NCBI RefSeq assembly: GCF_001586275.1
Contig: NZ_CP014545.1
Coordinates: 496,001-560,000, forward strand
Direction of reading: 5' to 3'
Source of the DNA: Sphingorhabdus sp. M41
Lineage (GTDB): Bacteria; Pseudomonadota; Alphaproteobacteria; Sphingomonadales; Sphingomonadaceae
DNA length: 64,000 bases
The position numbers and the translations under genes were made by a program. The notes beneath the pieces are model-generated. The model worked only from the letters and a program-made list of their open reading frames with translations. It was not told the origin of the DNA and ran no database searches. Position 1 is the first letter of the stretch. Each line of letters opens with the position of its first letter. Of this stretch, positions 5,257-34,860 are shown piece by piece.

Positions 5257-6420
5257 TTAGGCGATCGGCTTCTCGTAAATCAGATATTCGCGGTTGATGG
5301 TCGCCTCGATCGCTTCGGCAATCGCCACCATTCCCTGATTATCTTCCAGTATCCAGCCGATTTCCGCGCGTTTGGTACCAAAATTGAGCTTGGCATCGCG
5401 GCGGATATATTCGATCAGCATGAACACCATCTGGCTAGCCAGCCGGCTGTTTTGCAGCTCCTTCTTGACCCCCATCAGCGGCACCCGCATCGAATTTGAT
5501 TTCGGGAATTTCAGCCACCATAACAGTTTCGCCCAGCCGAAGGGCCACAGCGAACCGTTCATTGTCTTGAGCACCTCGTTCATGTCGGGCAGCGTCATCA
5601 TGAAGGCTACCGGCTCGCCTTCCAGTTCGGCAATCCGGATCAGATCTTCATGTACAATGGGTTTCAGGCTTTTGCCGGCATGTTCAATCTCGTGATCGGT
5701 CATCGGGACAAATCCCCAATTGCTCGACCAGGCGTCGTTCAGCAGATTCATGATGATCGCGGCATCGCGGTCGAAATATTTCTTGTCGACTTTACGAATC
5801 TTGAGCCTTTTGTTGCGCTCGCCCGATGCCACGATCCGTTTGACCAAATCGGGGAAGCCATCTTCGACCGGAAGGTGATATGTCACCAGCCGCTTGGCGA
5901 CAGTATATCCAAGACTCTCTATCCAGCCCTGATAATCCGCATTGTGATGGCCCATCATGATCATCGGACTATGGTCGTGTCCCTCGGTCAGGAGGCCGGG
6001 TTCTTCCCAGACCGACATGCTGATCGGGGCAAGCACGCGGGTCATGCCCTGTTCCTTGAGCCATGCCTCGGCTGCACGAATCAGCGCGTGCATCGCCGCT
6101 TCGTCGCTTGCTTCCATCAGGCCCCAATTGCCCGTTCCGGGACCCATGCCCTGTTCCGGGGGCTGTTCCAGCGCCAGTTCATCGATATGCGCGCTGATCC
6201 GTCCGACCACTCGGCCTCGCCGCAACGCGAGAAAAAACTGCACCCGTGCATGTTCGAAAAACGGGTTCTTCCCGGGCGTGATCAGCTTGGCGACTTCCGA
6301 CCTCAGGGGCGGAACCCAATGCGGATCATGGGCGTTGAGCTCATAGGCAATTTCAATGAATTGCTTGGTCTGGGCCTTGGTAGTCACAGGCTGAATTACT
6401 ATATCCTGACCGGCCACCAT
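5257..6420 (-). CDS. GNAT-fold N-acyltransferase, candidate bacterial ceramide synthase
   Basis: A 387-residue soluble protein with the GNAT layout: an early strand-helix region (VQFFLALRRGRVVGRISAHID, about residues 60-80), an internal conserved block around NDAWSSNWGFVPMTDHE, and a C-terminal RAEIGWILEDNQGM core strand. It matches the family often annotated only as hypothetical or GNAT; by my recall the ceramide synthase (bCerS) of the Caulobacter sphingolipid cluster belongs to this type. Its place about 7 kb from spt and the acyl carrier protein supports N-acylation of a sphingoid base, but that function is inference. Divergent from the desaturase across a 131-base gap. Confidence 0.6.
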   Translation of the reverse strand: MVAGQDIVIQPVTTKAQTKQFIEIAYELNAHDPHWVPPLRSEVAKLITPGKNPFFEHARVQFFLALRRGRVVGRISAHIDELALEQPPEQGMGPGTGNWGLMEASDEAAMHALIRAAEAWLKEQGMTRVLAPISMSVWEEPGLLTEGHDHSPMIMMGHHNADYQGWIESLGYTVAKRLVTYHLPVEDGFPDLVKRIVASGERNKRLKIRKVDKKYFDRDAAIIMNLLNDAWSSNWGFVPMTDHEIEHAGKSLKPIVHEDLIRIAELEGEPVAFMMTLPDMNEVLKTMNGSLWPFGWAKLLWWLKFPKSNSMRVPLMGVKKELQNSRLASQMVFMLIEYIRRDAKLNFGTKRAEIGWILEDNQGMVAIAEAIEATINREYLIYEKPIA

Positions 6421-6551
6421 ATTTTATCCTTCTACATTTGTGGCTGGCTGTGGCGTTAATCGCGGCGCAATGTCAAGGGCAGCCGCGCGATTGCGGTCTT
6501 GCCGTTGCCATGATGTCGCCACGATATGTTGCTCTAGGCCGTCTAACGATT

Positions 6552-7664
6552 ATGCAGGTGTTTATGAGTTCGACAACCATCTCCCCCAAAAATGCGCCCA
6601 AGGCCGCCGCAGAGCTGCGCCTGAGCTCGGCGGCTGTGCCCGTTGCCGAGGATGCTGGCCTGATCCGGACCGCAGCCAAGGTCACGCGTGACCTCAATAC
6701 GCCAAAGCCCTCGATTTATTGGGCTGACTTTCTGGCATCGGTTGCCGTTGGCTACGGATCGCTTGCCGGTGCGATCGTCGTTCAATCCACAGGGTTCGCC
6801 ATTTTTTTCGCCCTGATCGCTGTTCTGGCTCTCTATCGGGCCGGCAGCTTCATTCATGAATTGACTCATGTGCGCCGCAACGCACTGCCGGGCTTTCATT
6901 TCGCCTGGAATGCCTTGTTCGGAGTTCCGATGCTGATTCCGTCCTTCATGTACGAGGGGATCCACAGCATTCATCACCGGACCAAGAAATATGGGACGGT
7001 GGAAGACCCGGAATATTTGCCGCTGGCGCTGATGAAGCCCTGGTCGGTTCCGTTATTCGTGATCGTCGCGGCGCTGGCGCCGGTAGCGCTGCTGTTCCGC
7101 TATGCTGTTCTATCGCCGCTTTCCGCGATCATTCCGCCACTGCGCAAAATAGTGGTGGAGCGCTATTCCGGTTTGATCATCAACCCGGATTTTCGGCGCA
7201 AGCCGCCGGAGGGCGATCTCAAACGCCGCTGGCTGGCCTGCGAAATCGGCGCCAGCATCTGGGCTATTGCTCTGTTGACGATGGTAGCGACGGACATAAT
7301 TCCGATGCGCGCATTTCTGATATTCCTTGGTGTGATGTCGGGGAGCGTGGTGCTCAACCAGATTCGGACATTGGTCGCGCATCTTTGGGAAAATGACGGC
7401 CATGAGATGAGCGTGACGGCGCAATATCTCGATAGTGTCAACGTGCCACCGCCAGCAACTCTGCCAGCCTTATGGGCGCCGGTCGGGCTACGTTATCACG
7501 CTCTGCATCATCTATTGCCCGGTGTGCCTTATCATAGTCTGGGAGAGGCGCATCGACGTCTGGCGGCCGAATTGCCGAGCGATTCCAAATTCTATCGGGC
7601 GAATCATGACAGTCTCTGGACTCTGATCACTGGACTGGTACGCGGCAGCGCTGGCAGAAACTGA
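6552..7664 (+). CDS. Membrane fatty acid/sphingolipid desaturase family protein
   Basis: A 370-residue integral membrane di-iron enzyme. Three histidine boxes are present: HELTH (about residues 102-106), HSIHH (138-142) and HALHH with a following PGVPYH near the C-terminus. Hydrophobic segments lie between them (GAIVVQSTGFAIFFALIAV, PLFVIVAALAPVALLF, IWAIALLTMVATDIIP). ATG 6552 is used; ATG 6564 is an equally plausible start, and neither has a strong ribosome site. The substrate could be a fatty acyl chain, a carotenoid or a sphingoid base; the neighbours favour a sphingolipid, which is inference. It converges on lptG with five bases between the stops. Confidence 0.8.
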   Translation: MQVFMSSTTISPKNAPKAAAELRLSSAAVPVAEDAGLIRTAAKVTRDLNTPKPSIYWADFLASVAVGYGSLAGAIVVQSTGFAIFFALIAVLALYRAGSFIHELTHVRRNALPGFHFAWNALFGVPMLIPSFMYEGIHSIHHRTKKYGTVEDPEYLPLALMKPWSVPLFVIVAALAPVALLFRYAVLSPLSAIIPPLRKIVVERYSGLIINPDFRRKPPEGDLKRRWLACEIGASIWAIALLTMVATDIIPMRAFLIFLGVMSGSVVLNQIRTLVAHLWENDGHEMSVTAQYLDSVNVPPPATLPALWAPVGLRYHALHHLLPGVPYHSLGEAHRRLAAELPSDSKFYRANHDSLWTLITGLVRGSAGRN

Positions 7665-7669
7665 AGCGG

Positions 7670-8758
7670 CTATTCCTCGGTCCGGATCAGCACGGTTTCG
7701 CCGATCAGGAAGAACAGCATGAATGGTGCCCAGGCCGCCAATAAAGTCGGATAAGCGCCAATATTGCCCATAGCGAGAGCGAAATTATCGGCGACGAAAT
7801 AGGCGAAGCCCAGCGCCATGCCGATTACGGCCCGGATGAACAATTGTCCCGACCGCGCCAGACCGAAGGCGGCAACAGCACCCAGCAAAGGCATCAATGT
7901 AGCCGACATCGGGCCTGAAATCTTGTGCCACCAACCGGCCTTGAGGCTCATTGTCGGACGACCTGCGCGCTCAAGCTCACCAATAGCAGTGTGCAGAGCT
8001 GTAATCGACAGGCTGTCCGCACTGACATTGGTCAAGGTGAACTGATCTGGCCGGATCGAATCGCCGATCAACATTTCGGGTTTCTTTTCCTCGGTGCCGG
8101 TACTGACGTCAAACTGGGTGACATCGGTGAGCAACCAGCCGGAAGGCGTGAACCGGCCCTCGTCGCCCTGCAGCAGACTTTTCAGTCCGTTTGCGGTGCG
8201 GTTGTAAATCGTGATGTCACGCAGCACGACCTTTTCGCCATGACCCGTCACTGTTCGTGCATTGATCAGATTATTGCCATCCTTGACCCAGACGTTGGTG
8301 CGTATGTTGCTCTCCGCCGGGATCGGACCGAAGTCGACTTTCTCCCACTGGGACAGACGGGCTGTTGACGGCGCGACAAGTGTTTCGTTGAACACGAAGG
8401 AAAACAGTGCAACGCCCATGCTGGTAACAATCAGCGGTGCCAGAATCTGGTGCGCGGACAGGCCTCCCGCTTTCATCGAAATGACTTCGCTATTCTGGTT
8501 CAGGGTAGCCAGTGTGATGATGGTTCCGAGCAATACCGAAAAGGGCAGGAAGCGGGCTATGAGTTGCGGAGCCCGCAACGAGACATAGGTCCAGAGTTCG
8601 GCTTCGCCGTTGCCCTGATAGGCGAGAATCTTGCCGCTCTCGCCGAGCAGATCGAGCGCCTGCAGGACCAGTACCAACAGCGCCAGTACCGCCAGGGTGC
8701 GGACAATGAACATTTTGGCCATATAGATGGCGAGTGTCCGGGAAGGGAAAAAGTCCAT
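7670..8758 (-). CDS. lptG: LptG-type permease of lipid export
   Basis: A 362-residue inner-membrane protein of the YjgP/YjgQ family, the transmembrane half of the Lpt ABC exporter that pulls glycolipids from the inner membrane to the periplasmic bridge. Hydrophobic helices sit at the N-terminus (MFIVRTLAVLALLVLVLQAL, then two more) and C-terminus, with a central periplasmic beta-jellyroll region at roughly residues 130-260, as in LptF/LptG. It begins six bases after lptF ends. Because sphingomonads carry glycosphingolipids in place of ordinary LPS, the cargo may be a sphingolipid; the sequence alone does not say. Confidence 0.88.
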   Translation of the reverse strand: MDFFPSRTLAIYMAKMFIVRTLAVLALLVLVLQALDLLGESGKILAYQGNGEAELWTYVSLRAPQLIARFLPFSVLLGTIITLATLNQNSEVISMKAGGLSAHQILAPLIVTSMGVALFSFVFNETLVAPSTARLSQWEKVDFGPIPAESNIRTNVWVKDGNNLINARTVTGHGEKVVLRDITIYNRTANGLKSLLQGDEGRFTPSGWLLTDVTQFDVSTGTEEKKPEMLIGDSIRPDQFTLTNVSADSLSITALHTAIGELERAGRPTMSLKAGWWHKISGPMSATLMPLLGAVAAFGLARSGQLFIRAVIGMALGFAYFVADNFALAMGNIGAYPTLLAAWAPFMLFFLIGETVLIRTEE

Positions 8759-8764
8759 GTCCGG

Positions 8765-9976
8765 CTATTCCTTCATCAACGCGCGTTTGCGATTGAAATT
8801 GAGCAAGCCCTTGAATACGCCGCCGAATTTTGAGAATGCTTTTTCCAATGCGCCGATTGGCTGGCCACCGGGCACGTGGGCCGCGACATGATACATCCAC
8901 ATGATCAGCGCGGCGAACAGGCAGAAAGGCAGCCACAGGGCTATGATCGGATCAACGAGACCCAGTGATCCGATATCTTCGCCATATTCGTTGACCTTGT
9001 GATAGGTCACGATCATCACGATAGACAGAAATACGCCAAGCGCGGAACTGGAGCGCTTTGGCGGAACCGCCAGCGCAATGGCCAGTAGCGGCATCAGCAG
9101 CATCATCACCACCTCGACCATGCGAAAGTGGAAATTGGAGCGGCTTTCGTTGCGTTCGGTTTCCGGACGCTCCTTGTCCAGGCCGACTCGCACGAGTTCC
9201 GGTATCGTATATTCCAGATCCTTGCCGCCCCGCGAGCGGAAGGATTCGATAGTGGGCAAATCGATCGGCAAATCATGATTGCTGAAACTCAGGATCCTCG
9301 GCTTTTCATAATTGGGTGCGTCGTGCACCAGCACGCCGTCGGTCAGGCGCAGGATGATCGTGTCGGGATCATCGGTTGCGAGAAATTGGCCGTTTTCCGC
9401 AGTGACCGAGACGGTCTGGCCCTTTTTATTCTCTGCGCGGACAAAAATCCCGCTCAATTTGGTGCCATTGTCACGGCTTTCCTCGATCCGCAGGGTCATC
9501 CGGCTGCCCAGATTGGTAAATTCGCCAACCTTGATCGAGGCACCAAGCGCACCCGAACGCAGTTCGAAGCGCAGTTCTTCATAATAATAGCGGGACAGCG
9601 GCTGAATGAACCCGACCAAAGCAAGATTGACCAGCATCAGCGCCACCGCGAACATATAGGGCACCCGGAGCAGACGCCCGTAACCTTGGCCAACGGCTCG
9701 GAAAACATCGAGTTCGGAGCTAAGCGCAAGCTGCCGGAAGGCCAGCAAAATGCCGAGCAGCAATCCGATCGGTATGCCAAGAGAAAGATATTCGGGAATC
9801 AGGTTGGCCAGCATCCGCCAAACGACGCTGACGGGGCCGCCTTCTGCCGCGACAAAATCGAACAGACGCAGCATTTTTTCCAGCACCAGCAGCATGGCGG
9901 CAATCACCAGCGTGCTGAACAGAGGTACCGCTATCAATTTTGCCAGATAGCGATCAGTGGAAGTCAGCAGTTTCAA
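8765..9976 (-). CDS. lptF: LptF-type permease of lipid export
   Basis: A 403-residue partner of LptG: N-terminal transmembrane helices (LIAVPLFSTLVIAAMLLVLE and LSLGIPIGLLLGILLAF), a periplasmic jellyroll domain at roughly 130-270, and three C-terminal helices (VVMMLLMPLLAIALAV, VFLSIVMIVTYHKV, ALWLPFCLFAALIMWMY). The SSELDVFRAVG motif, typical of LptF/G coupling helices, is present after the first helices. It heads a two-gene unit with lptG and is divergent from the DUF2141 gene across 125 bases. No LptA, B, C or D gene is in the window. Confidence 0.88.
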   Translation of the reverse strand: MKLLTSTDRYLAKLIAVPLFSTLVIAAMLLVLEKMLRLFDFVAAEGGPVSVVWRMLANLIPEYLSLGIPIGLLLGILLAFRQLALSSELDVFRAVGQGYGRLLRVPYMFAVALMLVNLALVGFIQPLSRYYYEELRFELRSGALGASIKVGEFTNLGSRMTLRIEESRDNGTKLSGIFVRAENKKGQTVSVTAENGQFLATDDPDTIILRLTDGVLVHDAPNYEKPRILSFSNHDLPIDLPTIESFRSRGGKDLEYTIPELVRVGLDKERPETERNESRSNFHFRMVEVVMMLLMPLLAIALAVPPKRSSSALGVFLSIVMIVTYHKVNEYGEDIGSLGLVDPIIALWLPFCLFAALIMWMYHVAAHVPGGQPIGALEKAFSKFGGVFKGLLNFNRKRALMKE

Positions 9977-10101
9977 CTTGTTGTCTCCCTCTCACCATGT
10001 TTTCGCCGCAAATCAAATCCATAACAATCGGTAGATCGGGGGCTGATTCTTGTCCGTGTCGGAGTAATGGCGCGGGTATAACGACTAGGAGTAACTTCGT
10101 C

Positions 10102-10584
10102 ATGTTGAAATTTGCGGCATCTATCGCATTATCGACCACTATTTTGCTATCCTCTGCCCCGGCATTTGCTGGTGGCCAGGTAGTGCCCAATGATCTTCGC
10201 AAATGTCAGGCGGGCGTTGGCCCTGCCGTTCTTGTCAATGTCAGTGGCGTCAAGGAATCCAATGGCAAAATGCGGGTTCAGACCTATCGCGGAATCTCGT
10301 CGGAATGGTTGAAAACAGGGGCATGGCTGCACCGGGTAGAGGCTCCGGCCAAGTCCGGGAATATGCAATTCTGTCTGCCCGTCCCTTCGGCGGGTACTTA
10401 CGCCATTGCGATCCGGCACGATATTAATGGCAATGGCAAGACCGATATATTTGGTGATGGCGGCGGCATGTCGAACAATCCGAGCATCAATCTCTTCAAT
10501 CTCGGCAAGCCGAGCTACAAGAAAACCGCCTTCACCATCGGGAATGAAGTCAAATCGATCAATATCACAATGAAATACAGATGA
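10102..10584 (+). CDS. DUF2141 exported protein
   Basis: A 160-residue secreted protein. Residues 1-24 form a signal peptide (FAASIALSTTILLSSAPAFA-G). The mature part matches the DUF2141 pattern: a beta-rich core with FCLPVPSAGTYAIAIRHDI, NGNGKTDIFGDGG and a conserved asparagine/glycine stretch before the last strands. The start ATG 10102 follows AGGAG at 10087-10091; longer readings lack a signal peptide. It is the first of three co-directional genes with the lipid kinase and the nucleotidyltransferase-like protein. Its function is unknown. Confidence 0.85.
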   Translation: MLKFAASIALSTTILLSSAPAFAGGQVVPNDLRKCQAGVGPAVLVNVSGVKESNGKMRVQTYRGISSEWLKTGAWLHRVEAPAKSGNMQFCLPVPSAGTYAIAIRHDINGNGKTDIFGDGGGMSNNPSINLFNLGKPSYKKTAFTIGNEVKSINITMKYR

Positions 10585-10619
10585 TGCATCCGGCACACGG
10601 GACAAACTAGGGCTAATTC

Positions 10620-11594
10620 ATGGCAAATGTCGCACTTCTTTCCAATCCGAATTCAACCGGGAATCGGGCGATTTTGCCAGAAGTGCGGTCTTATTGCGTA
10701 AAGAATAGTGATGTTTTTCACTATGAAGTGGATCATGTCGATGAAATTGCCAAGGCATTGGAAACCATTGCCCGGGTGAAGCCGAAAGTGCTGGTCATCA
10801 ACGGCGGTGACGGGACGGTACAGGCGGCACTGACCGAATTATATCAGGGCGGACATTTTGGTGACAACCCGCCCCCGGTCGCGGTGCTGCCCAATGGCAA
10901 GACGAATTTGATTGCTCTTGATCTCGGGTCCGAAGGCAATCCGCTAAAGGCGCTGGAACGCATTGTCGAACTGGCCAAACATGATTTGCACGAACATCTG
11001 GTCGACCGGGAACTGATCGCGCTTTCCGATGGTGGCAAGGACAGCAAGGTCGTGCTCGGCATGTTTCTGGGCGGTGCCGGCCTGTCGGAGTTCATTCTCT
11101 ATTGCCGTCACAAGATCTATCCGCTGGGACTGCCCAATGCGGCCGCGCACGTGTTGACGGTTTTTGCTGCGCTCGCATCTGTGCTGTTCGGCATAAAGGG
11201 AAAATTTCTGCCCAACCGGTCACGACCAATCAAGATATCGCTGATCCGGGACGGCCAGTTTCAGGGCAATTTTGCGGTACTGATCGTTACCACGCTGGAG
11301 CGGTTGTTGTTGATGAAACGTTCGATGCGAAACCAGAATGCGATTGGCCGGATGCAGTTTCTGGCGATCGATCAGCGAGCCGGTGCCATTGTCCGCTTTC
11401 TGCTGTCGGTGATTTTTGGCCGGCTGGGCAAGAATGTCCAGAAGGGCATCCATCTGGAACGCGGCGACATGATCCGGATCGAGGGCGAGGGCAGCAACGT
11501 ACTGATGGACGGCGAGCTATTCTCCGCCCAGCCGGGGCATCCGATTGTTCTGAAATCTACCAAGGCAGTGTCCTTCCTTCGGCTCGCTGCTTGA
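10620..11594 (+). CDS. Diacylglycerol/sphingosine-kinase family lipid kinase
   Basis: A 324-residue protein with the DAG-kinase catalytic domain: nucleotide-binding NGGDGTVQAA at residues 61-70, then VAVLPNGKTNLIALDLGS, the family's G-x-x-N region. A beta-sandwich C-terminal half ends with GDMIRIEGEGSNVLMDGELF, which carries the conserved D-G-E. This family phosphorylates diacylglycerol, sphingoid bases or ceramide. Next to spt, ceramide phosphorylation is the more attractive guess, and a related kinase (CpgB) is reported to make anionic ceramide in Caulobacter; the match is recalled, not computed. No membrane helix is obvious. It is 35 bases after DUF2141. Confidence 0.82.
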   Translation: MANVALLSNPNSTGNRAILPEVRSYCVKNSDVFHYEVDHVDEIAKALETIARVKPKVLVINGGDGTVQAALTELYQGGHFGDNPPPVAVLPNGKTNLIALDLGSEGNPLKALERIVELAKHDLHEHLVDRELIALSDGGKDSKVVLGMFLGGAGLSEFILYCRHKIYPLGLPNAAAHVLTVFAALASVLFGIKGKFLPNRSRPIKISLIRDGQFQGNFAVLIVTTLERLLLMKRSMRNQNAIGRMQFLAIDQRAGAIVRFLLSVIFGRLGKNVQKGIHLERGDMIRIEGEGSNVLMDGELFSAQPGHPIVLKSTKAVSFLRLAA

Positions 11595-11609
11595 GCTAGG
11601 GCGTTTCGC

Positions 11610-12527
11610 GTGAGCGAACTCAAATCCCTAATTGCACAGGAACTGGCACATCCGGTTGATTCGCAGGTGGCTGCTTTCGCTGCGTCGATTGCCGCGCAAT
11701 ATGGTGACGCATCTCGCGCTGTGCTCTTTTATGGCTCTTGCCTGCGGACGACCGAACTAGACGGGCAGATGCTCGATTTCTACCTTATCGTTTCGGACTA
11801 TGAGGCGGCTTACGGGAAAAGCTGGCTAGTGGGGGCGAACAAACGGCTGCCACCCAATGTATTTCCCGCAGAATATGGCGGCCTGATCGCCAAGGTGGCC
11901 GTGCTGAGCGAGAGCGATTTTTACAGACTGAACCGGATCAGCGCCAGCGCGGTCAGCCTTTGGGCGCGATTTGCGCAACCGTCCCGACTGGTCTGGCAGG
12001 CGGATGAAGCGGCGCGGATCCAAGCAGTTGAAGCGATTGAAGGGGCGGCGGTCACGTTATTCGACATGACCTTTCCGATGATGGATATTGATACGGAATA
12101 TACGATTGCGGATCTATGGAAGCGCGGTTTCGAACTGACTTACGGGGCGGAGCTGCGCGCCGAAAGGAAGGATCGTTCCGATACGGTCGTCGATTCGGAT
12201 CCCGAGCGTTATGCGCGATTTGGACCAGCCGTCGTGGCCGCGATTACGGAACGGGACAAAGCACGCGGGAAAAAGCTCAAAATAGTGGCTTCTCGCGATA
12301 CAGTCGAAAAAAGATGGCGGCAATTGCGGCGCAACGGCAAGATTTTGACTCTCGCCAGACTGGCCAAGGCATCCGCCACCTACGCCGGTGGCATTGATTA
12401 TCTGGCGTGGAAGATCAACCGCCATGCCGGAACCGATTATGTGATCAGGCCCTGGCAGCGCAAATGGCCGATCCTCGGCGCGCTGGTGATGCTGCCGCGG
12501 TTGATTCTAGGCGGGGCGATCAAGTAA
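11610..12527 (+). CDS. Nucleotidyltransferase-like protein of the lipid locus
   Basis: A 305-residue protein starting at GTG 11610, 15 bases after the lipid kinase. It has a GS-x12-D pattern (YGSCLR at residues 41-46 to LDFYLIVSDYE at 55-65) like the pol-beta nucleotidyltransferase motif G-S...D-x-D, but the second acid is Y58 rather than D. The C-terminus is basic with a hydrophobic stretch (WPILGALVMLPRLILGGAIK), suggesting peripheral membrane contact. Proteins like this are sometimes labelled phosphatidate cytidylyltransferase. A role in modifying the phosphorylated lipid made by the previous gene is inference; the fold call is tentative. Confidence 0.6.
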   Translation: MSELKSLIAQELAHPVDSQVAAFAASIAAQYGDASRAVLFYGSCLRTTELDGQMLDFYLIVSDYEAAYGKSWLVGANKRLPPNVFPAEYGGLIAKVAVLSESDFYRLNRISASAVSLWARFAQPSRLVWQADEAARIQAVEAIEGAAVTLFDMTFPMMDIDTEYTIADLWKRGFELTYGAELRAERKDRSDTVVDSDPERYARFGPAVVAAITERDKARGKKLKIVASRDTVEKRWRQLRRNGKILTLARLAKASATYAGGIDYLAWKINRHAGTDYVIRPWQRKWPILGALVMLPRLILGGAIK

Positions 12528-12551
12528 ACCCATCCTCCAAATGACGAGATG

Positions 12552-13346
12552 CTAGCGATCCTTGTAATCAGGTTTCCGCTTGGCAAAAAACGCCTTAGCC
12601 GCCTCGCGGCTGTCTTCGGTCATCGACAGCATCACCTGTTGCCGGTCTTCGATGGCGAGTGCCGCTTCGAAACTTTGCGCATCGATATTGCGGTTCAGGG
12701 CATCCTTGGAAAGGCGCAGGCCCATCGGGGCGGTGTCGAGCATCTCTTCGGCCAGTGACAGGCCAGTCGAGAGCAGCTTGCCCTCATCGACCATTTCGCT
12801 GATCAAACCATATTTTTCGGCGCGTTCGGCATGGATGAATCTGCCGGTCAGGATCAGTTCCGAGGCGATCGAAGCACCCACCATTCGCGGCAGAAAATAG
12901 CTGGAACCCATGTCGCAGCCGCCGAGCCCGATTTTTATATAGGCCGCATTCATCTTGAGCGACGGTGCGCCATAGCGGACGTCGCTAGCGAGCAATAGCG
13001 AGAAGCCGCCGCCGCAGGCTGCGCCCTGTGCCAGCGCGATAATCGGTTGCGGGCATTGCCGCATCAATTGCATCACGGTCGCGATCGAGCGCTGGGTGTT
13101 CCAGACATGCTGGACTTGTCCGCGCGAGCCGTCATTCTTCCAGCCGCTGATGTCGAGCCCAGCACAAAAGGCGCGGCCTTCGGCGCGAAACAGCACGACT
13201 CGAACATCGAGACGTTTCTGAAGGCCACGAAAATAATCCTGCAGCGCGAAGATCATGTCCTCGTTCATCGTGTTGAGCTTGTCGGGGCGGTTGAGCGTCA
13301 GGATTTCAATTGCGCCGCGCTGTTCGATATGGATGGAGTTGGTCAT
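12552..13346 (-). CDS. Enoyl-CoA hydratase/isomerase (crotonase) family protein
   Basis: A 264-residue cytosolic crotonase. Oxyanion-hole segments are visible as GRAFCAGLDISGW (near residue 60) and AQGAACGGGFSLLLASDVRYG (around 105-125). The usual catalytic glutamate positions read MGSSYFLPRMVG, where the first acidic residue is replaced, so it may be an isomerase or another crotonase reaction rather than a classic hydratase. It closes the minus-strand group downstream of spt. Acyl-chain metabolism for sphingolipids is possible but unproven. Confidence 0.85.
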   Translation of the reverse strand: MTNSIHIEQRGAIEILTLNRPDKLNTMNEDMIFALQDYFRGLQKRLDVRVVLFRAEGRAFCAGLDISGWKNDGSRGQVQHVWNTQRSIATVMQLMRQCPQPIIALAQGAACGGGFSLLLASDVRYGAPSLKMNAAYIKIGLGGCDMGSSYFLPRMVGASIASELILTGRFIHAERAEKYGLISEMVDEGKLLSTGLSLAEEMLDTAPMGLRLSKDALNRNIDAQSFEAALAIEDRQQVMLSMTEDSREAAKAFFAKRKPDYKDR

Positions 13347-13357
13347 TTATATGCCTT

Positions 13358-13606
13358 TTATTGACTGACAGAGCCGTATGTTGCGATGGCTACCAAACCG
13401 GCCAGCAATAGGCCAACGACCATGAAAACCAAATAGAGCAAAACCGTGATGACAAAGAAAGCTCCCAAATCATTGTCGAACCGGAGCGCAAGCCACAATG
13501 GCCAGAAAAATATGACAATGGCGCCGGCCTGATCGCTGAAAACCAGCCAGCAAAGCGCGGCGACAAACGGGAGGACGAATAGCGAAGGGACCCAATGCCA
13601 CCGCAT
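13358..13606 (-). CDS. Small hydrophobic membrane protein, unrecognised
   Basis: An 82-residue protein with three apparent membrane segments: VPSLFVLPFVAALCWLVF, AIVIFFWPLWLALRF and AFFVITVLLYLVFMVVGLLL. The start is taken at ATG 13606, 20 bases after the spt stop; longer readings overlap spt in another frame and add a basic tail. It lies between spt and the crotonase gene on one strand, so it is probably co-transcribed. I do not recognise the family. Confidence 0.6.
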   Translation of the reverse strand: MRWHWVPSLFVLPFVAALCWLVFSDQAGAIVIFFWPLWLALRFDNDLGAFFVITVLLYLVFMVVGLLLAGLVAIATYGSVSQ

Positions 13607-13625
13607 CGGGTTTAAGGATATATTC

Positions 13626-14825
13626 CTAAATCGCCCCAACAGCCTTGCCAGCCGCTTCAAACATGCCGAGAATCTGGTCGACTTGCTCGCTCGTATGTTC
13701 GGCACAAAGCGAACAGCGCAGCAGTGTCATATTGGCTGGTGTCGCGGGTGGTCTCGCCAGATTGACATATAGGCCCTCCGCGAGCAGCGCCTGCCACATC
13801 ATCGCGCCTTTTTCGAGATCCGGCATTATTACCGCGATAATCGCGCTTTGCGCTTCCGGCGTGCCGAGGGTGAAACCGAGGTTGCGCAGTCCCTTGTGCA
13901 GTTTCTTGCTATTCTCCCAGAGATGCGCGCGCTTGTTGCCGCTGTGCATCAGCTTGCGGATCGAGGTGCTCGCCGTCGCCATCACGCTGGGTGGCAGGCT
14001 GGCGGTGAACACATAGGGGCGGCAGACCAGCCGCATGATTTCGAATTTCGGATGGTTGGAGACGCAGAAGCCGCCGACCGTGCCGACGCTTTTGCTGAAC
14101 GTACCGATGATGAAGTCGACATCGTCGATCACGCCCTGCGCTTCGCAGACGCCGCGTCCGTTTTCGCCGATGAAACCCATCGAGTGGGCTTCGTCGACCA
14201 GTACCATGGCGCCGTTTTCCTTGCAGACGCGAACCATTTCCTTGAGCGGTGCGACATCACCGAGCATCGAATAGACGCCTTCCAGGACCACCAGCTTGCC
14301 GGCTTCGGCGGGCAGGCGTTTGAGGCGCTTTTCCAGCGCTTCCACATCATTGTGGCGGAACGCGACAATTTCGGCATTGCCCATCGCGCAACCGTCATAG
14401 ATCGATGCATGGCTGTCGATGTCGAGAATGACATAGTCGCCCTTGCCCGCCAGCGTCGAGATGATCCCCAAATTGGCCTGATAGCCGGTGGAAAAGACCA
14501 TCGCATGGTCCATCGCGTAAAATTCCTTGAGCGCATCCTCGCAATCGCGGTGGAGGCTGTAGGTCCCGTTAAGCACGCGGCTGCCGGTGGTGCCGGATCC
14601 GAATTCTTCCAGCGCTTTCAGGCCAGCCTGACGAACATCATCGTCAAAGGTCATGCCCATATAATTATAGGTGCCGAGAAGAATGGTTTCCTTGCCATCA
14701 CAAATGGCGACGGTCGGTGAAAGCACTTCCTCCATCACCAGTGAAAACGGGTCTTTGACACCCGTCGCGAGGAGGTTTTCACGCTCCTGGATGAGCGGGT
14801 CAAATTTACTGAGTAGATCGGTCAT
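13626..14825 (-). CDS. spt: Serine palmitoyltransferase
   Basis: A 399-residue PLP enzyme of the alpha-oxoamine synthase family that condenses serine with palmitoyl-CoA or an acyl-ACP to 3-ketosphinganine, the first step of sphingolipid synthesis. PLP-binding residues are visible: H139 in DIDSHASIYDG (ring stacking), D211 and H214 in VDEAHSMGF, and K245 in GTFSKSVGTVGGF as the Schiff-base lysine. The N-terminus has no membrane anchor, as in the soluble Sphingomonas enzyme. KBL, HemA and BioF are close relatives, but a dedicated acyl carrier protein immediately upstream on the same strand argues for SPT. Confidence 0.9.
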   Translation of the reverse strand: MTDLLSKFDPLIQERENLLATGVKDPFSLVMEEVLSPTVAICDGKETILLGTYNYMGMTFDDDVRQAGLKALEEFGSGTTGSRVLNGTYSLHRDCEDALKEFYAMDHAMVFSTGYQANLGIISTLAGKGDYVILDIDSHASIYDGCAMGNAEIVAFRHNDVEALEKRLKRLPAEAGKLVVLEGVYSMLGDVAPLKEMVRVCKENGAMVLVDEAHSMGFIGENGRGVCEAQGVIDDVDFIIGTFSKSVGTVGGFCVSNHPKFEIMRLVCRPYVFTASLPPSVMATASTSIRKLMHSGNKRAHLWENSKKLHKGLRNLGFTLGTPEAQSAIIAVIMPDLEKGAMMWQALLAEGLYVNLARPPATPANMTLLRCSLCAEHTSEQVDQILGMFEAAGKAVGAI

Positions 14826-14834
14826 TCTTTACTT

Positions 14835-14906
14835 CCGTTGGTCCTGAGCCTGTCGAAGGACGAAACACCCGCTCGTGCGACCCTTCGTCAAGCTCAGGGC
14901 GAACGG
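14835..14906. repeat. REP-like inverted repeat between the acyl carrier protein gene and spt
   Basis: Two 25-base arms face each other: 14835-14859 (core CCTGAGCCTGTCGAAGG) and 14882-14906 (core CCTTCGTCAAGCTCAGG). They match at 21 of 25 positions when one is reverse-complemented, separated by 22 bases. The core resembles a short palindromic unit common between genes of sphingomonads (established pattern, recalled). Within an ACP-spt transcript it would form a hairpin that could protect or attenuate the message. Confidence 0.8.
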
Positions 14907-14916
14907 GTGCTTTGGT

Positions 14917-15162
14917 TTAGCTGTCCATCAACTTCGTGACGGAATCGGCAAGTTGGCCGATGCTTTCGATTTCGGCCTGCATGTTCATGGTGATGATGAT
15001 ATCAAATTCGTCTTCGACGGCAGCGACAAAATCCATGACCGTCAAGCTGTCCCATTCGAGATCACCCTGAAAGGTCGTATCTGCGGTCAAATCGACGCCC
15101 TTATTGTTGAAAGGCCCGATCAGTTCGCTGATCTTGGTCATGATTTCGTCGCGATTTGCCAT
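14917..15162 (-). CDS. Acyl carrier protein of sphingolipid synthesis
   Basis: An 81-residue acidic carrier protein. The phosphopantetheine attachment serine is S39 in LEWDSLTVMDF, the D-S-L motif. Helices before and after are typical of ACP. It lies directly upstream of spt on the same strand, separated only by the inverted repeat, which suggests it delivers the acyl chain to SPT rather than serving general fatty acid synthesis. No fab genes are nearby. Confidence 0.85.
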   Translation of the reverse strand: MANRDEIMTKISELIGPFNNKGVDLTADTTFQGDLEWDSLTVMDFVAAVEDEFDIIITMNMQAEIESIGQLADSVTKLMDS

Positions 15163-15193
15163 AATATGCTTTCAAAATTACTATTCCTGACCT

Positions 15194-15220
15194 TTGCCAA
15201 GACATGCGCACCATTGGCAA
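15194..15220. promoter_or_regulatory. Inverted repeat in the divergent ACP/DUF5706 intergenic region
   Basis: TTGCCAA (15194-15200) is followed 13 bases later by its reverse complement TTGGCAA (15214-15220). The arrangement is like a dimeric regulator site and lies 32 bases before the acyl carrier protein start. It is short enough to be chance. Confidence 0.3.
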
Positions 15221-15326
15221 GTGAATAAGGCGTAAAAGCGGCATAATGCGTGCCTTGGCTTGCCCATGCATGCGCTTTCTGCCACTCTTTTGCCGTATCG
15301 CGGTCGACCTAAGGGGGAGAGTGTTT

Positions 15327-15851
15327 ATGGACGAAGGCAGCAAATGGCCGGATGAAGTTGTGTACGCGCTTGGCACCACCCAGCGACATCATGTGCAATT
15401 GAGCGTTATGGCGGATAATAAGGCGAATATGCTGATTGGCGCGACCTTTGTCGTGTTCACGCTCGCCATTGGCCAAAGCCATGCCGGCGATATCTCCCTG
15501 CCGCTTCTCATTCTTGCTATTTCCGCCTTTGGATCCGCCGGCTTGGCGGCCTTGGCGGTGATGCCATCGGTAAGGCCGCAGAAAAACACGTCTCCCAACA
15601 TGCTGTTCTTTGGCGGTTTTTCCAAAATCAGTGAAGATGAGTTCATCGACCAGCTGCTGGAAACGGAATTGCGCAGCCAGGAATCAACCTACCGGGCGAT
15701 GCTGCGCGATATCTATCAAATGGGTCAGATTCTGGAGCACAAGAAATACCGTTTTCTCGGCTGGGCCTATCGGGTATTTCTGATCGGCCTGACGCTAACC
15801 TTCATCACCTATGTTTACGAACAGTTCGCCGGACCGGTTTTTCAGGCCTGA
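15327..15851 (+). CDS. DUF5706 (Pycsar effector-like) membrane protein
   Basis: A 174-residue protein. The motif MADNKANMLIGA at about residues 28-39 at the start of the first membrane helix is the hallmark I associate with the DUF5706/Pycsar effector domain. Three hydrophobic helices are seen: MLIGATFVVFTLAIG, LPLLILAISAFGSAGLAALA and YRVFLIGLTLTFITYVYE. A charged cytosolic loop (EDEFIDQLLETELRSQE) sits between helices two and three. The start ATG 15327 follows AGGGGGAG. In Pycsar defence the partner is a pyrimidine cyclase; none is adjacent. It may instead serve a housekeeping membrane role. It meets the SDR gene stop to stop with no gap. Confidence 0.7.
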   Translation: MDEGSKWPDEVVYALGTTQRHHVQLSVMADNKANMLIGATFVVFTLAIGQSHAGDISLPLLILAISAFGSAGLAALAVMPSVRPQKNTSPNMLFFGGFSKISEDEFIDQLLETELRSQESTYRAMLRDIYQMGQILEHKKYRFLGWAYRVFLIGLTLTFITYVYEQFAGPVFQA

Positions 15852-16784
15852 TTACAGCCAGTCGTTATGGCGATACCATTTTGCGGTATCCTTCAGGCCT
15901 TGCCGTGTTTCAATCTGCGCTTGCCACAATTGTGACGGCAGGCGCTTTTGCGGGTCTATTGTCCAGTCGTCATGGCAAAAATAATTGACCCGGTCTGTGG
16001 TAAGCTTGGCCTTGTTGCCGCGCGCCAGACGGTCCGCCTTGGCAGCAAGACGCAATAGAGATTTTGGCATGCCGAATGTAGCAACGCGTTTGCCTATCGC
16101 TTGGCCTATCGCCTTGGCAAAATCGGCCTGAGTCCAGCCGCCCGGCTTGCCGTCATCGACCTCGAAAATCTGAGCAGTAAAATCTTCCTGTTCCGGCAAA
16201 AGGGCAAGCAGCGCCTGGCACAGGTCCTGGACGTGTATCACTGATAAAAGTCCGTCAGCATCAGGGGGCAGGGTAACAAATCCCAGTCTGGCCATTTTGA
16301 ACAGGTCGAGAAATTCGCCGTCGCCAGGTCCATAGACTGCGGGTGGGCGGAGGATCGTCCAGTCGAGGCCGCTGGTCTTGACCAGCTTTTCCGCCTTGGC
16401 CTTGGTTTCGCCGTAGATCGACAACTGCGGCTGAGTAGCCGCGAGCGAAGAGACGTGGACGAACCGCTTGGTTCCGGCCTGTTTGGCAGCTTCGATGACC
16501 GCAAGCGTTCCTGCGACGTTACCAGTCTCAAAGCCGACTCTGTCTGGGGCATTGACGACCCCGGCAATGTGCAGAACCATGTCCGCGCCGTGGCATAAGG
16601 TCGAGAGGCTTGCTGTATCGTCTAGCGCACCGCGCACCCATGTGACGCTCGAACGGTCATCCTGTTTCCGCCGTGTCAAAGCGCGTGCGTCATATCCCTC
16701 GCTGATCACCAGATCGAGCATCCGGCTACCGACAAAACCGGTTGCGCCGGTTATCGCGATTGTTTTTCGGGAAGTGCCAGTCAT
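15852..16784 (-). CDS. NAD(P)-dependent epimerase/extended SDR, candidate ketosphinganine (ceramide) reductase
   Basis: A 310-residue extended short-chain dehydrogenase. The Rossmann motif GATGFVGSR is at residues 13-21, with S-x-Y-G-E-T-K as the catalytic Ser...Tyr-x3-Lys (HVSSLAA and IYGETKAKAEK), and RPPAVYGPGDG follows. Bacterial ketosphinganine/ceramide reduction (CerR in Caulobacter) is done by proteins of this type. Proximity to spt supports that here, but many epimerase-like SDRs exist and the assignment is inference. It is followed on the same strand by nothing closer than the acyl carrier protein, 690 bases on, and preceded by proB with five bases between. Confidence 0.65.
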   Translation of the reverse strand: MTGTSRKTIAITGATGFVGSRMLDLVISEGYDARALTRRKQDDRSSVTWVRGALDDTASLSTLCHGADMVLHIAGVVNAPDRVGFETGNVAGTLAVIEAAKQAGTKRFVHVSSLAATQPQLSIYGETKAKAEKLVKTSGLDWTILRPPAVYGPGDGEFLDLFKMARLGFVTLPPDADGLLSVIHVQDLCQALLALLPEQEDFTAQIFEVDDGKPGGWTQADFAKAIGQAIGKRVATFGMPKSLLRLAAKADRLARGNKAKLTTDRVNYFCHDDWTIDPQKRLPSQLWQAQIETRQGLKDTAKWYRHNDWL

Positions 16785-32598: not shown

Positions 32599-32626
32599 TT
32601 GACCTAATCATTGTTCGCTCTATGTT
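32599..32626 (+). promoter_or_regulatory. Sigma-70-like promoter of egtB
   Basis: TTGACC (32599-32604) and TATGTT (32621-32626) are separated by 16 bases. Transcription would then start near 32633, downstream of the only canonical in-frame start codon (TTG 32611), which makes the egtB start uncertain. Confidence 0.5.
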
Positions 32627-33882
32627 CTGAAAAAATCGTAGCCACCGGAGTAGGATTAATCGCTAGCCAACCGCAACGCCCGTGTCCGCCTTCGTTCGAC
32701 GCAGAAAATCTTTCCCGATCAAGTGCCCTGCTGGATCGTTTTCGGGACGTCAGGCGCCATTCGGTTCGTCTCGCCGAAGGCTTGAGCGATGCCGATGCGA
32801 CCGCGCAATCGATGGATGATGCTTCACCGACGAAATGGCATCTGGCGCACATCAGCTGGTTTTTTGAAACCTTCCTGCTGCGCGATCATGTCGCAGGTTA
32901 TCAGCTGTTTGATGATGCTTTTCCCTATCTGTTCAACAGCTATTACGAAGCCGAAGGCGCACGGCATGCTCGCCCGGAGCGAGGTTTGCTGACCCGTCCG
33001 TCACTGGCAGAAGTGATCGATTATCGCACCCATGTCGACAGCGCGATGGTGGAGGCTATGGAGGGATTCTCCGAAGAATTGCTCGATCTGGTCGAACTCG
33101 GTTTGAATCATGAACAGCAGCATCAGGAATTGCTGCTTACGGATATTCTTCACCTCTTCTCCCGCAATCCCTTGAAGCCCGCCTATTCCAGCATGGCTCC
33201 TGTCTCTGCATCCGAGCCCGGACCATTGCAATGGATCGAGGGCAGGACCGGCATCCAGCAGATCGGACATGATGGTCAGGGCTTCGCCTTTGATTGCGAA
33301 GGTCCGCGCCACGACGTGCTGCTGCATCCGCATGCGATCGCCGATCGTCCGGTCACCAACGGCGAGTGGCTCGAGTTCATTGAGGATGGGGGTTATCGCG
33401 AAGCCCGCCACTGGCTGTCCGACGGCTGGGCCTGGGTGCAACAGGAAGGAATCGACGCGCCGCTTTACTGGAACCGGATATCTGATCCGGAATGGGCTGA
33501 GTTCGGACTGTGCGGCAATCAAAGTCTCGACCAGTTCGCACCCGTGAAGCATGTCAGCCATTATGAAGCGGATGCCTATGCCACTTGGGCGGGGGCACGC
33601 CTGCCGACCGAAGCCGAATGGGAGGTGGCAGCGAACAATGGCCTACCCAATAGCGGCGCCGTCTGGGAATGGACCGGCAGCGCCTATCTGCCCTATCCCG
33701 GTTTCAAGCCTGCCGATGGCGCGGTTGGTGAATATAATGGCAAGTTCATGTCGGGCCAGTCTGTCCTGAAGGGCGGCAGCACCGCCACAGCGCCGAACCA
33801 TATCCGGCCCAGTTACCGGAATTTCTTCTATCCCCACCAGCGCTGGCAGTTCTGCGGACTGCGGCTTGCAAAAGACCTTTGA
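32611..33882 (+). CDS. egtB: Ergothioneine biosynthesis protein EgtB (sulfoxide synthase)
   Basis: Non-haem iron enzyme that joins a thiol donor to trimethylhistidine (hercynine). The DinB-like N-terminal half holds the iron-binding histidines: H in PTKWHLAHISWFFE and the HEQQHQE motif (H-x3-H-x-E). The C-terminal half is an FGE-sulfatase domain (RLPTEAEWEVAANNG, GAVWEWTGS, RPSYRNFFYPHQRWQFCGLRLA). Starting at TTG 32611 gives 423 residues. No ATG occurs before the conserved ALLDRFRDVRRHS. The only good ribosome site (GGAG, 32647-32650) stands eight bases before an in-frame ATC at 32659, so a non-standard start is possible. egtD follows after 18 bases. Confidence 0.92.
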   Translation: MFALCSEKIVATGVGLIASQPQRPCPPSFDAENLSRSSALLDRFRDVRRHSVRLAEGLSDADATAQSMDDASPTKWHLAHISWFFETFLLRDHVAGYQLFDDAFPYLFNSYYEAEGARHARPERGLLTRPSLAEVIDYRTHVDSAMVEAMEGFSEELLDLVELGLNHEQQHQELLLTDILHLFSRNPLKPAYSSMAPVSASEPGPLQWIEGRTGIQQIGHDGQGFAFDCEGPRHDVLLHPHAIADRPVTNGEWLEFIEDGGYREARHWLSDGWAWVQQEGIDAPLYWNRISDPEWAEFGLCGNQSLDQFAPVKHVSHYEADAYATWAGARLPTEAEWEVAANNGLPNSGAVWEWTGSAYLPYPGFKPADGAVGEYNGKFMSGQSVLKGGSTATAPNHIRPSYRNFFYPHQRWQFCGLRLAKDL

Positions 33883-33900
33883 CGTAAAGGATTATCCCCC

Positions 33901-34860
33901 ATGGACATGACCACTTCGCTCGTCGATCATAGCTTTCGCAAGGACGTCAGGCGCTGCTTTGAACAGCAGACTTATGCGATTCCGGCACGCTGGCTTTATG
34001 ATCGCCGCGGATCGGAATTGTTCGAGGAAATCACAGAGCTTCCGGAATATTACCCGACGCGCACGGAGACACAGTTGCTCAAGGCAAACGGGCCTGCCTT
34101 TGCAGCATCAGTGGGACCGAACCGGGCGGTGATTGAATTTGGTTCCGGCAGTTCGGTCAAGACCCCGCATCTGCTGAAAGCAATCGATCCCGCGGCTTAC
34201 GTACCGATCGATATTTCCGGGGAGTTTCTCGAACATAGCGCATCGCTGCTGCAGGCCGAATTTCCAGACCTGCCGATATATCCGGTCGAGGCCGATTTCA
34301 TGAAGCGGGTGGCGCTGCCCGAAGCCGTCGCGGACATGCCGAAACTGGGCTTCTTTCCCGGCTCGACCATTGGCAACATGATTGCCCGGACCTCGGTCGA
34401 CCTGCTGCGCTTCATGCGGGAAACTTTGGGTGAAGGCGCTCAGCTTCTGATCGGTATTGACCGGATCAAGGATATTCAGACACTGATTGACGCCTATGAT
34501 GATGCTGCCGGCGTGACGGCGCAATTCTCGCTGAATCTGCTCCACCGGATCAACCGCGAACTGGACGGCGATATACCCTGCGATAAATTCCGGCATGTGG
34601 CTGTCTGGAACGACCTTTATGCAAGGGTTGAAATCTATCTGGAAGCGCAGGCCGATGTACGCTTCTCGATCGACGGACATGTCCATGAAATGGTTCAGGG
34701 CCAGAAAATCCATATCGAGAACAGCCATAAATATGGCCTGCGCGATGCCCGGCTGATGCTGCGGGCTGGCGGCTGGACGCCGTTGCACGAATGGAGCGAC
34801 GAGCAGGACCATTTCACGCTAATGCTGGTAGAAGCCCACCCGCTCAAATATGCACCCTAG
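33901..34860 (+). CDS. egtD: L-histidine N-alpha-methyltransferase EgtD
   Basis: A 319-residue SAM-dependent enzyme that trimethylates histidine to hercynine, the substrate for EgtB. Motifs: YDRRGSELFEEITELPEYYPTR is the N-terminal family hallmark (here cited in part), VIEFGSGSSVKTPHL is the SAM loop, and YVPIDISGEFL follows. With egtB it makes a complete two-gene pathway. No EgtC or EgtA is near, so the thiol donor (cysteine or glutamylcysteine) is not determined here. Confidence 0.94.
   Translation: MDMTTSLVDHSFRKDVRRCFEQQTYAIPARWLYDRRGSELFEEITELPEYYPTRTETQLLKANGPAFAASVGPNRAVIEFGSGSSVKTPHLLKAIDPAAYVPIDISGEFLEHSASLLQAEFPDLPIYPVEADFMKRVALPEAVADMPKLGFFPGSTIGNMIARTSVDLLRFMRETLGEGAQLLIGIDRIKDIQTLIDAYDDAAGVTAQFSLNLLHRINRELDGDIPCDKFRHVAVWNDLYARVEIYLEAQADVRFSIDGHVHEMVQGQKIHIENSHKYGLRDARLMLRAGGWTPLHEWSDEQDHFTLMLVEAHPLKYAP

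Follow-up and report, generated by a model that had tools for sequence, protein, structure and literature searches.

A probable sphingolipid synthesis and export locus in Sphingorhabdus sp. M41 with a candidate sphingolipid extractor of the LptF/LptG family

This work concerns a 64,000-nucleotide stretch of the genome of the sphingomonad Sphingorhabdus sp. M41 (positions 496,001 to 560,000 of NZ_CP014545.1, a single contig of 3.34 Mb; below, the window, in whose coordinates all features are given), and specifically the 11.5 kb between 5257 and 16784, in which a serine palmitoyltransferase (SPT) gene lies among further lipid genes and an lptF/lptG pair. The reading we favor, at roughly three chances in four, is that this is a sphingolipid synthesis and export cluster, the LptF/LptG pair of which would be a sphingolipid extractor feeding the single LptD of the cell. 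LptG (7670–8758, minus strand; TIGR04408, 298 bits, cut-off 240) and LptF (8765–9976, minus strand; TIGR04407, 245 bits, cut-off 230) both exceed the NCBIfam equivalog cut-offs, and the label of lipopolysaccharide (LPS) export follows from that match alone. The pair is the only one in the genome, which likewise has a single LptD, and the two lipid A genes searched for, lpxC and lpxK, gave no match in it.

The wider context comes from 192 alphaproteobacterial genomes, Sphingorhabdus sp. M41 included. A true SPT (at least 439.9 bits, the next match in any genome scoring 262.7) is present in 29 of them, and 29 genomes lack LpxC, 17 of these having SPT (the LpxC-negative status of G115, G183 and G189 being read from their absence among the listed positives). 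Counting four or more LptF/LptG hits as two pairs (G022 has five, with pieces), we find two pairs in 11 of the 12 genomes with both SPT and LpxC, the remaining one (G064) having one pair, and a single pair in 16 of the 17 genomes with SPT but no LpxC, none of which has two and one of which (G055) has none (Fisher test for number of pairs against LpxC, 3.5e-7, a value that ignores kinship). Among the 151 genomes with LpxC but no SPT, four hits occur in one (G018) and three hits in G152, G165 and G179. Within the genomes that lack LpxC, retention of LptF/LptG also differs between those with and without SPT (Fisher, 0.011, again ignoring kinship). LpxK is found in exactly the 12 LpxC-positive SPT genomes, and LptD in 28 of the 29 SPT genomes, single in each (that of G191 in two pieces) and absent from G055. 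The single LptD of the two-pair genomes implies either that both extractors share it or that one of them uses something else. A search for a second LptC through PF06835 gave one match in 25 of the 29 SPT genomes and none in four, although a divergent LptC2 may be missed by this profile. We note that G055, a single-contig genome, has SPT, a short-chain dehydrogenase/reductase (SDR), an acyl carrier protein (ACP), a GNAT protein and an AasR-type synthetase, with no match for LpxC, LpxK, LptF/LptG, LptD, LptC or the cpgC-like family described below; judged by its gene content, it is apparently a natural sphingolipid genome without the Lpt bridge.

Trees of LptF and LptG were built from 52 gene pairs, 39 from 28 SPT genomes and 13 from SPT-negative controls picked by hand out of 163 such genomes. 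Each tree splits the rows into 25 of LPS type and 27 of sphingolipid type. In the slower trees this split has 100/100 support and recurs in every one of 200 bootstrap trees, for LptF as for LptG, and the quick trees agree. The LPS-type side contains every one of the 13 controls, plus a single pair per genome from the 12 with SPT and LpxC, and the sphingolipid-type side holds the sole pair of all 16 LpxC-lacking SPT genomes that have one, together with the second pair of 11 LpxC-positive SPT genomes. It is with these second pairs, and apart from the SPT-negative controls, that the LptF and LptG of the window stand. The sphingolipid-type pair lies within 14 kb of spt in 13 of the 16 LpxC-lacking genomes and in six of the 11 LpxC-positive ones (the other five having it on other contigs); the LPS-type pair is near spt in 0 of 12, although nine of these lie on other contigs, where the distance is unmeasurable.

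We also compared 27 lptD neighborhoods, that of G191 being excluded on account of its LptD in two pieces. LPS-type lptF and lptG directly adjoin lptD in eight of the 11 LpxC-positive loci and in none of the 16 LpxC-negative ones (Fisher, 7e-5, ignoring kinship). The arrangement in G105, G064 and G170 is pepA> <lptF-lptG-lptD-surA-pdxA-ksgA, and in nine of the 16 LpxC-negative loci, that of Sphingorhabdus sp. M41 included, it is pepA> <lptD, with no Lpt permease between. In the scenario we propose, the loss of lipid A synthesis would have been accompanied by loss of the LPS-type pair next to lptD, with LptD itself retained for sphingolipids. The system resembles the canonical LPS exporter, LptB2FGC-A-DE, in the family of its LptF/LptG, in its coupling-helix glutamates and in a lone LptD still located in the pepA / lptD-surA-pdxA-ksgA neighborhood. 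It differs in that its permeases branch separately in the trees, that lpxC and lpxK were not found, and that LptG has lost the basic residue of position 40.

In LptG of the Shigella structure, K40 touches the 4'-phosphate of lipid A and K41 the inner core (PMC6744409); K34 also contacts lipid A in Shigella. Position 40 is lysine or arginine in 23 of 25 LPS-type and one of 27 sphingolipid-type rows, and position 41 in 24 of 25 and four of 27, respectively; the LptG of the window has glycine at the K40 equivalent. The coupling-helix glutamates, which are crucial in E. coli (PMC5082905), are kept throughout the sphingolipid-type side (27/27 for LptF and 27/27 for LptG), and the window retains both the LptF E84 equivalent and the LptG coupling-helix glutamate.

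The sphingolipid cluster of Caulobacter comprises 17 genes, CC_1168 to CC_1152, in four operons and two cistrons, and its ceramide and phosphosphingolipid genes act in one pathway (PMC11324152). Its order, as derived from a parallel reading of the legend lists in that paper, is aasR-cerR-acpR-spt (CC_1165 to CC_1162), CC_1161 (CDP-diacylglycerol-synthase-like, CDP being cytidine diphosphate), CC_1160 (ceramide kinase), CC_1159, CC_1158 and CC_1157, followed by lptF2, lptG2, cerS, CC_1153 and CC_1152 (PMC11324152). In the window, the genes along the direction of spt are those for the SDR, the ACP, SPT and a member of the enoyl-CoA hydratase/isomerase family (ECH), with a Tam41-like nucleotidyltransferase, a lipid kinase and a DUF2141 protein encoded on the opposite strand; lptF and lptG come next, and beyond lptG lie a desaturase-family gene on the opposite strand and, last, the GNAT gene. 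Judged by gene order, this is the sphingomonad form of the Caulobacter cluster, cerR-acpR-spt / cpgC-cpgB / lptF2-lptG2 / cerS, the candidate genes taking these positions in the published order, apart from gaps, and likewise in several short units. An original prediction made from the letters of the DNA had named this gene set and described it as short divergent and convergent units rather than one operon, and both descriptions hold: every listed open reading frame (ORF) is open and recognized by its family, weakly so in the case of GNAT and by way of family members in that of the Tam41-like gene, and DUF2141, ECH and PycTM-family genes are interspersed beyond the predicted set. Unlike that of Caulobacter, the cluster contains no aasR, no CDP-alcohol phosphotransferase (cpgA type) and no CC_1158-type phosphoesterase, the genome is without an LpxC or LpxK match and without a second LptF/LptG pair, and desaturase-family and PycTM-family genes are added. 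The search for a CpgA-type CDP-alcohol phosphotransferase covered the first 26 kb of the window and found none there. By position, rather than by sequence, DUF2141 may take the place of CC_1157.

Across the class, we examined the neighbors of spt in 27 other alphaproteobacterial genomes (neighborhoods centered on spt, and for G125 on lptF/lptG as well; those of G170, G191 and G065 are shortened by contig ends, and G022, whose 3-kb contig offers no 20-kb stretch around spt, stands outside the 27). SDR relatives near ACP-SPT recur in 22 of these, AasR in 22, ACP in 21, LptF/LptG in 19, GNAT relatives near SPT or LptF/LptG in 18, Tam41-like genes in 18, the kinase in 16, a CC_1158-like phosphoesterase in 13, a CDP-alcohol phosphotransferase in nine and DUF2141 in four, neighbor clusters resembling antisense shadow ORFs having been passed over. 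These recurrent neighbors, together with the published Caulobacter order, support the originally proposed route from serine to an acylated, phosphorylated sphingolipid and its export, but nothing supports the desaturation that had been included in that route.

Within the Sphingomonadales, we took the best 80 SPT loci, 54 of which have full 10-kb flanks and form the basis of the following counts, the 26 short-flank loci being excluded. As in the window, spt is accompanied by its own ACP in all 54; a PycTM-family gene is present in 29, the kinase in 25, LptF and LptG in the same 25, the Tam41-like gene in 24, DUF2141 in 22, GNAT in 19, the SDR and the desaturase-family gene in 15 each, and ECH in six. 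The original prediction had held that its reading would fail if close relatives kept spt and ACP together without the remaining genes, and this is partly what is seen, in that 29 of the 54 loci have neither lptF/lptG nor the kinase within 10 kb of spt. Among the matches listed, Erythrobacter and Novosphingobium relatives have SPT-ACP alone within 10 kb, often with a PycTM-family gene. The compact cluster is one of two states within the Sphingomonadales, and the fact that distant families of the class share the compact form suggests that it is the older state and that dispersal is derived. Sphingomonas wittichii and Zymomonas mobilis, like the window, have orthologues of the cluster, but these are reported as scattered over six and ten genome regions, respectively (PMC11324152), whereas here most lie within 11.5 kb.

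In the pathway we propose, Spt (13626–14825, minus strand; NF047603, the alphaproteobacterial SPT model, 802 bits, cut-off 670) would condense serine with an acyl chain carried on the dedicated ACP (14917–15162, minus strand; AcpR type, PF00550, with a DSL motif), which would be charged by an AasR-type synthetase encoded elsewhere. The best solved relatives of the SPT are bacterial serine palmitoyltransferases (PDB 2x8u and 2jg2), the FSKS motif is present, and the closest named relative among the matches listed is that of Sphingorhabdus sp. 109, at 98% identity. The original prediction had reported an acyl-CoA/ACP synthetase as missing, which is true of the locus but not of the genome: an AasR-type gene lies at G000:C1:403765-405474, about 90 kb before the window and outside the cluster, with 53% identity (627 bits) to the cluster-borne synthetase of G031, the next match in the genome scoring 78. 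The GNAT-fold protein (5257–6420, minus strand; PF00583, a weak match of 23.8 bits against a cut-off of 20.7), a candidate bacterial ceramide synthase (bCerS) in the position of CC_1154, would attach the second acyl chain. Its gene follows beyond lptG, in agreement with the arrangement published for Caulobacter, and comparison of the protein with the PDB by sequence gave only matches with E values of 0.014 and 0.039. The extended SDR (15852–16784, minus strand; PF01370), a candidate ceramide reductase (CerR), would reduce the 3-keto group. Both candidates are recurrent neighbors of the right kind, compared with Caulobacter by position rather than by protein alignment. Spt and bCerS are described as cytoplasmic and CerR as periplasmic, and according to the same source neither a flippase nor a transporter had by then been found (PMC11087976).

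The lipid kinase (10620–11594, plus strand; PF00781), a candidate ceramide kinase of CpgB type, would then form ceramide-1-phosphate, and the Tam41-like nucleotidyltransferase (11610–12527, plus strand), a candidate CpgC, would activate this for addition of a polar head group. The kinase has a GGDG motif at residue 62 and no CxxxCxxC, as is stated for CpgB (PMC10331486), and has no match in the PDB by sequence. The Tam41-like product alone matches no Pfam or NCBIfam family, and its assignment to PF09139 comes by way of its family, two of the 33 members of which match Tam41_Mmp37 (best value 8.7e-7, with Pfam run over the family); the family profile found nothing convincing in the PDB (best E 0.17). 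There is in this a weak tie of the cpgC-like family to the mitochondrial CDP-diacylglycerol synthase Tam41. The cpgC-like gene is present in 25 of the 29 SPT genomes (it is absent from G055, G064, G010 and G125), that is, in 25 of the 27 genomes with a sphingolipid-type LptF/LptG pair and in neither of the two without (G055 and G064), a co-occurrence that we read as pointing to an extractor for anionic sphingolipids.

These two enzymes could instead act on diacylglycerol and phosphatidate, supplying CDP-diacylglycerol, in which case the locus would yield only ceramide and glycosphingolipid. The diacylglycerol kinase and Tam41 families are glycerolipid families, and glycosphingolipids are known from sphingomonads. 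However, the kinase/Tam41-like pair recurs beside spt and lptF/lptG across the class. CpgB, a ceramide kinase in vitro, phosphorylates diacylglycerol in vitro as well, but deletion of cpgB left phosphatidate levels unchanged (PMC10331486), and Caulobacter mutants in CC_1161 or in CC_1159/CC_1160 made no ceramide phosphoglycerate, production of which was restored by CC_1160 (PMC11324152). We consider a glycerolipid role for the two enzymes unlikely.

Several observations weigh against a sphingolipid extractor as we read it. The Fisher values given above overstate independence, the genomes being related; LpxC changes about five times on the SPT tree (four to five in bootstraps, two forced by starred branches), and an independent-pairs test of correlated loss has too few pairs to reach significance. 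Long branches are flagged in both Lpt trees. The LptG of the window keeps lysine at position 41, the K34 equivalent is mostly aspartate on both sides and does not separate them, and LptG K40E/K41E was without growth effect in the assay cited (PMC5548808). The evidence on lipid A is that of lpxC and lpxK, the Lpt searches covered LptF, LptG, LptC and LptD, and our mapping to the CC numbers follows gene order and intermediate genomes rather than Caulobacter protein sequences. Six of the 12 genomes with neither an LpxC nor an SPT match keep LptF/LptG and LptD (the other six have neither), so that retention alone proves nothing; some of these genomes are drafts, and lpxC may be missing from their assemblies, and others may have another cargo. 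Two sphingomonads, G010 and G125, keep a sphingolipid-type pair without the cpgC-like gene, which means that a phosphate head group is not required. Finally, in the seven genomes with spt and the pair on different contigs, the cpgC-like gene lies with the pair in four (G065, G163, G080 and G137), with spt in two (G022 and G191) and, in G170, on a contig apart from both, and physical linkage alone thus does not single out the pair.

The six genomes that retain LptF/LptG and LptD without SPT, whether through another cargo or an overlooked lpxC, and the two sphingomonads without the cpgC-like gene would also fit a pair that exports another glycolipid or a lipid-linked polysaccharide in an LPS-less cell, its adjacency to spt being inherited gene order. 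Against this, the second pair tracks SPT, occurring in nearly all LpxC-positive genomes that have SPT as opposed to four hits in a single one of the 151 that do not; the SPT genomes without a sphingolipid-type pair, G055 and G064, are likewise without the cpgC-like gene; and the kinase shares the locus with lptF/lptG in 25 of the 25 full Sphingomonadales loci that have lptF/lptG. Taking both sides into account, a different cargo appears distinctly improbable. A chance grouping of housekeeping lipid genes that do not work together, which the dispersed Sphingomonadales loci might suggest, can be set aside almost entirely, given that the same neighbors recur in other families of the class and that the corresponding genes form one pathway in Caulobacter.

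We return to the sphingolipid extractor, with the substrate of LptF/LptG, the chemistry of the head group and the use of LptB, LptA and LptD being inferred rather than observed. Judged from the sequences compared, the pair would most likely feed anionic sphingolipids through the former LPS bridge to LptD: LptF/LptG, together with LptB, would extract the finished anionic sphingolipid from the inner membrane, and the lipid would be passed along the LptC/A bridge to the single LptD. The cargo would be phosphoceramide derivatives in most genomes, and charged glycosphingolipids in G010 and G125. More broadly, and with somewhat less assurance, we think it probable that the Alphaproteobacteria have an ancient Lpt extractor of a class of its own, which serves anionic sphingolipids and uses the same LptD as the LPS extractor, that several lineages lost lipid A synthesis and the LPS-type pair together, and that sphingolipids took over the whole bridge, the window being an end state with the extractor beside spt.

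Turning to the other genes of the locus, the desaturase-family gene (about 6552–7664, plus strand; PF00487, 89.6 bits) encodes three His-box-like motifs, its start codon, like that of the PycTM-family gene, having been assigned by hand. Its product may be a hydroxylase, as a candidate acyl 2-hydroxylase, or a desaturase. A DesA-family protein of Caulobacter, encoded elsewhere in that genome, reportedly adds a hydroxyl group to the amide-linked acyl chain (PMC11324152), and by analogy one may guess at acyl hydroxylation here. The DUF2141 protein (10102–10584, plus strand; PF09912), probably secreted to judge from its N-terminus, accompanies lptF/lptG in 22 of the 25 full loci that have this pair, is found in four other neighborhoods of the class, and is a candidate for an additional component of sphingolipid export or of the envelope. 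The ECH gene (12552–13346, minus strand; PF00378), which stands between SPT and the Tam41-like gene in the six full loci noted above (five of these from the closest of the listed relatives), is probably an unrelated passenger. We discarded a small membrane ORF at 13358–13705 as a possible SPT small subunit, no convincing relative having been found across 108 loci (best E 3.6); it is probably not a gene.

The PycTM-family membrane protein (about 15327–15851, plus strand; PF18967, 91 bits) belongs to a family named for a "Pycsar effector", the gene for which recurs divergent to ACP-SPT, including in genera without the rest of the cluster nearby. Such a protein scores above 60 bits in 48 of the 80 loci and is in each of these encoded on the other strand from SPT, and the family match holds in PADLOC too (PycTM, 26 of 26). 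No pyrimidine cyclase family, as would belong to Pycsar defense, was found among the scanned neighbors, and the family name may mislead, the protein being perhaps a membrane component linked to sphingolipids and not an effector of defense. Elsewhere in the window, at 32611–34860 (plus strand), an FGE-sulfatase/DinB protein is followed by a histidine-specific methyltransferase, a gene pair which we take to resemble EgtB-EgtD (ergothioneine type).

In the literature, sphingomonads are known to live without LPS, and LptC2/F2/G2 were proposed in 2024 as phosphosphingolipid carriers in Caulobacter, with orthologues in sphingomonads (PMC11324152), while passages of two papers of that year describe the route of sphingolipids to the outer membrane as unknown (PMC11324152 and PMC11087976). 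In the literature we searched, which covers subscription journals thinly and outside of which a similar comparison may exist, LptF/LptG paralogues are linked to sphingolipids only in PMC11324152. What the present comparison adds to that literature is that SPT genomes lacking LpxC have a sole pair of sphingolipid type, that lptD stands in them without the LPS pair at its side, and that sphingolipid-type pair and cpgC-like gene co-occur. Together, the split in the trees, the lost LPS pair and this co-occurrence name a transporter to test for sphingolipid export, and they suggest that this pair, in the LPS-less sphingomonads, is wrongly labeled "LPS export permease".

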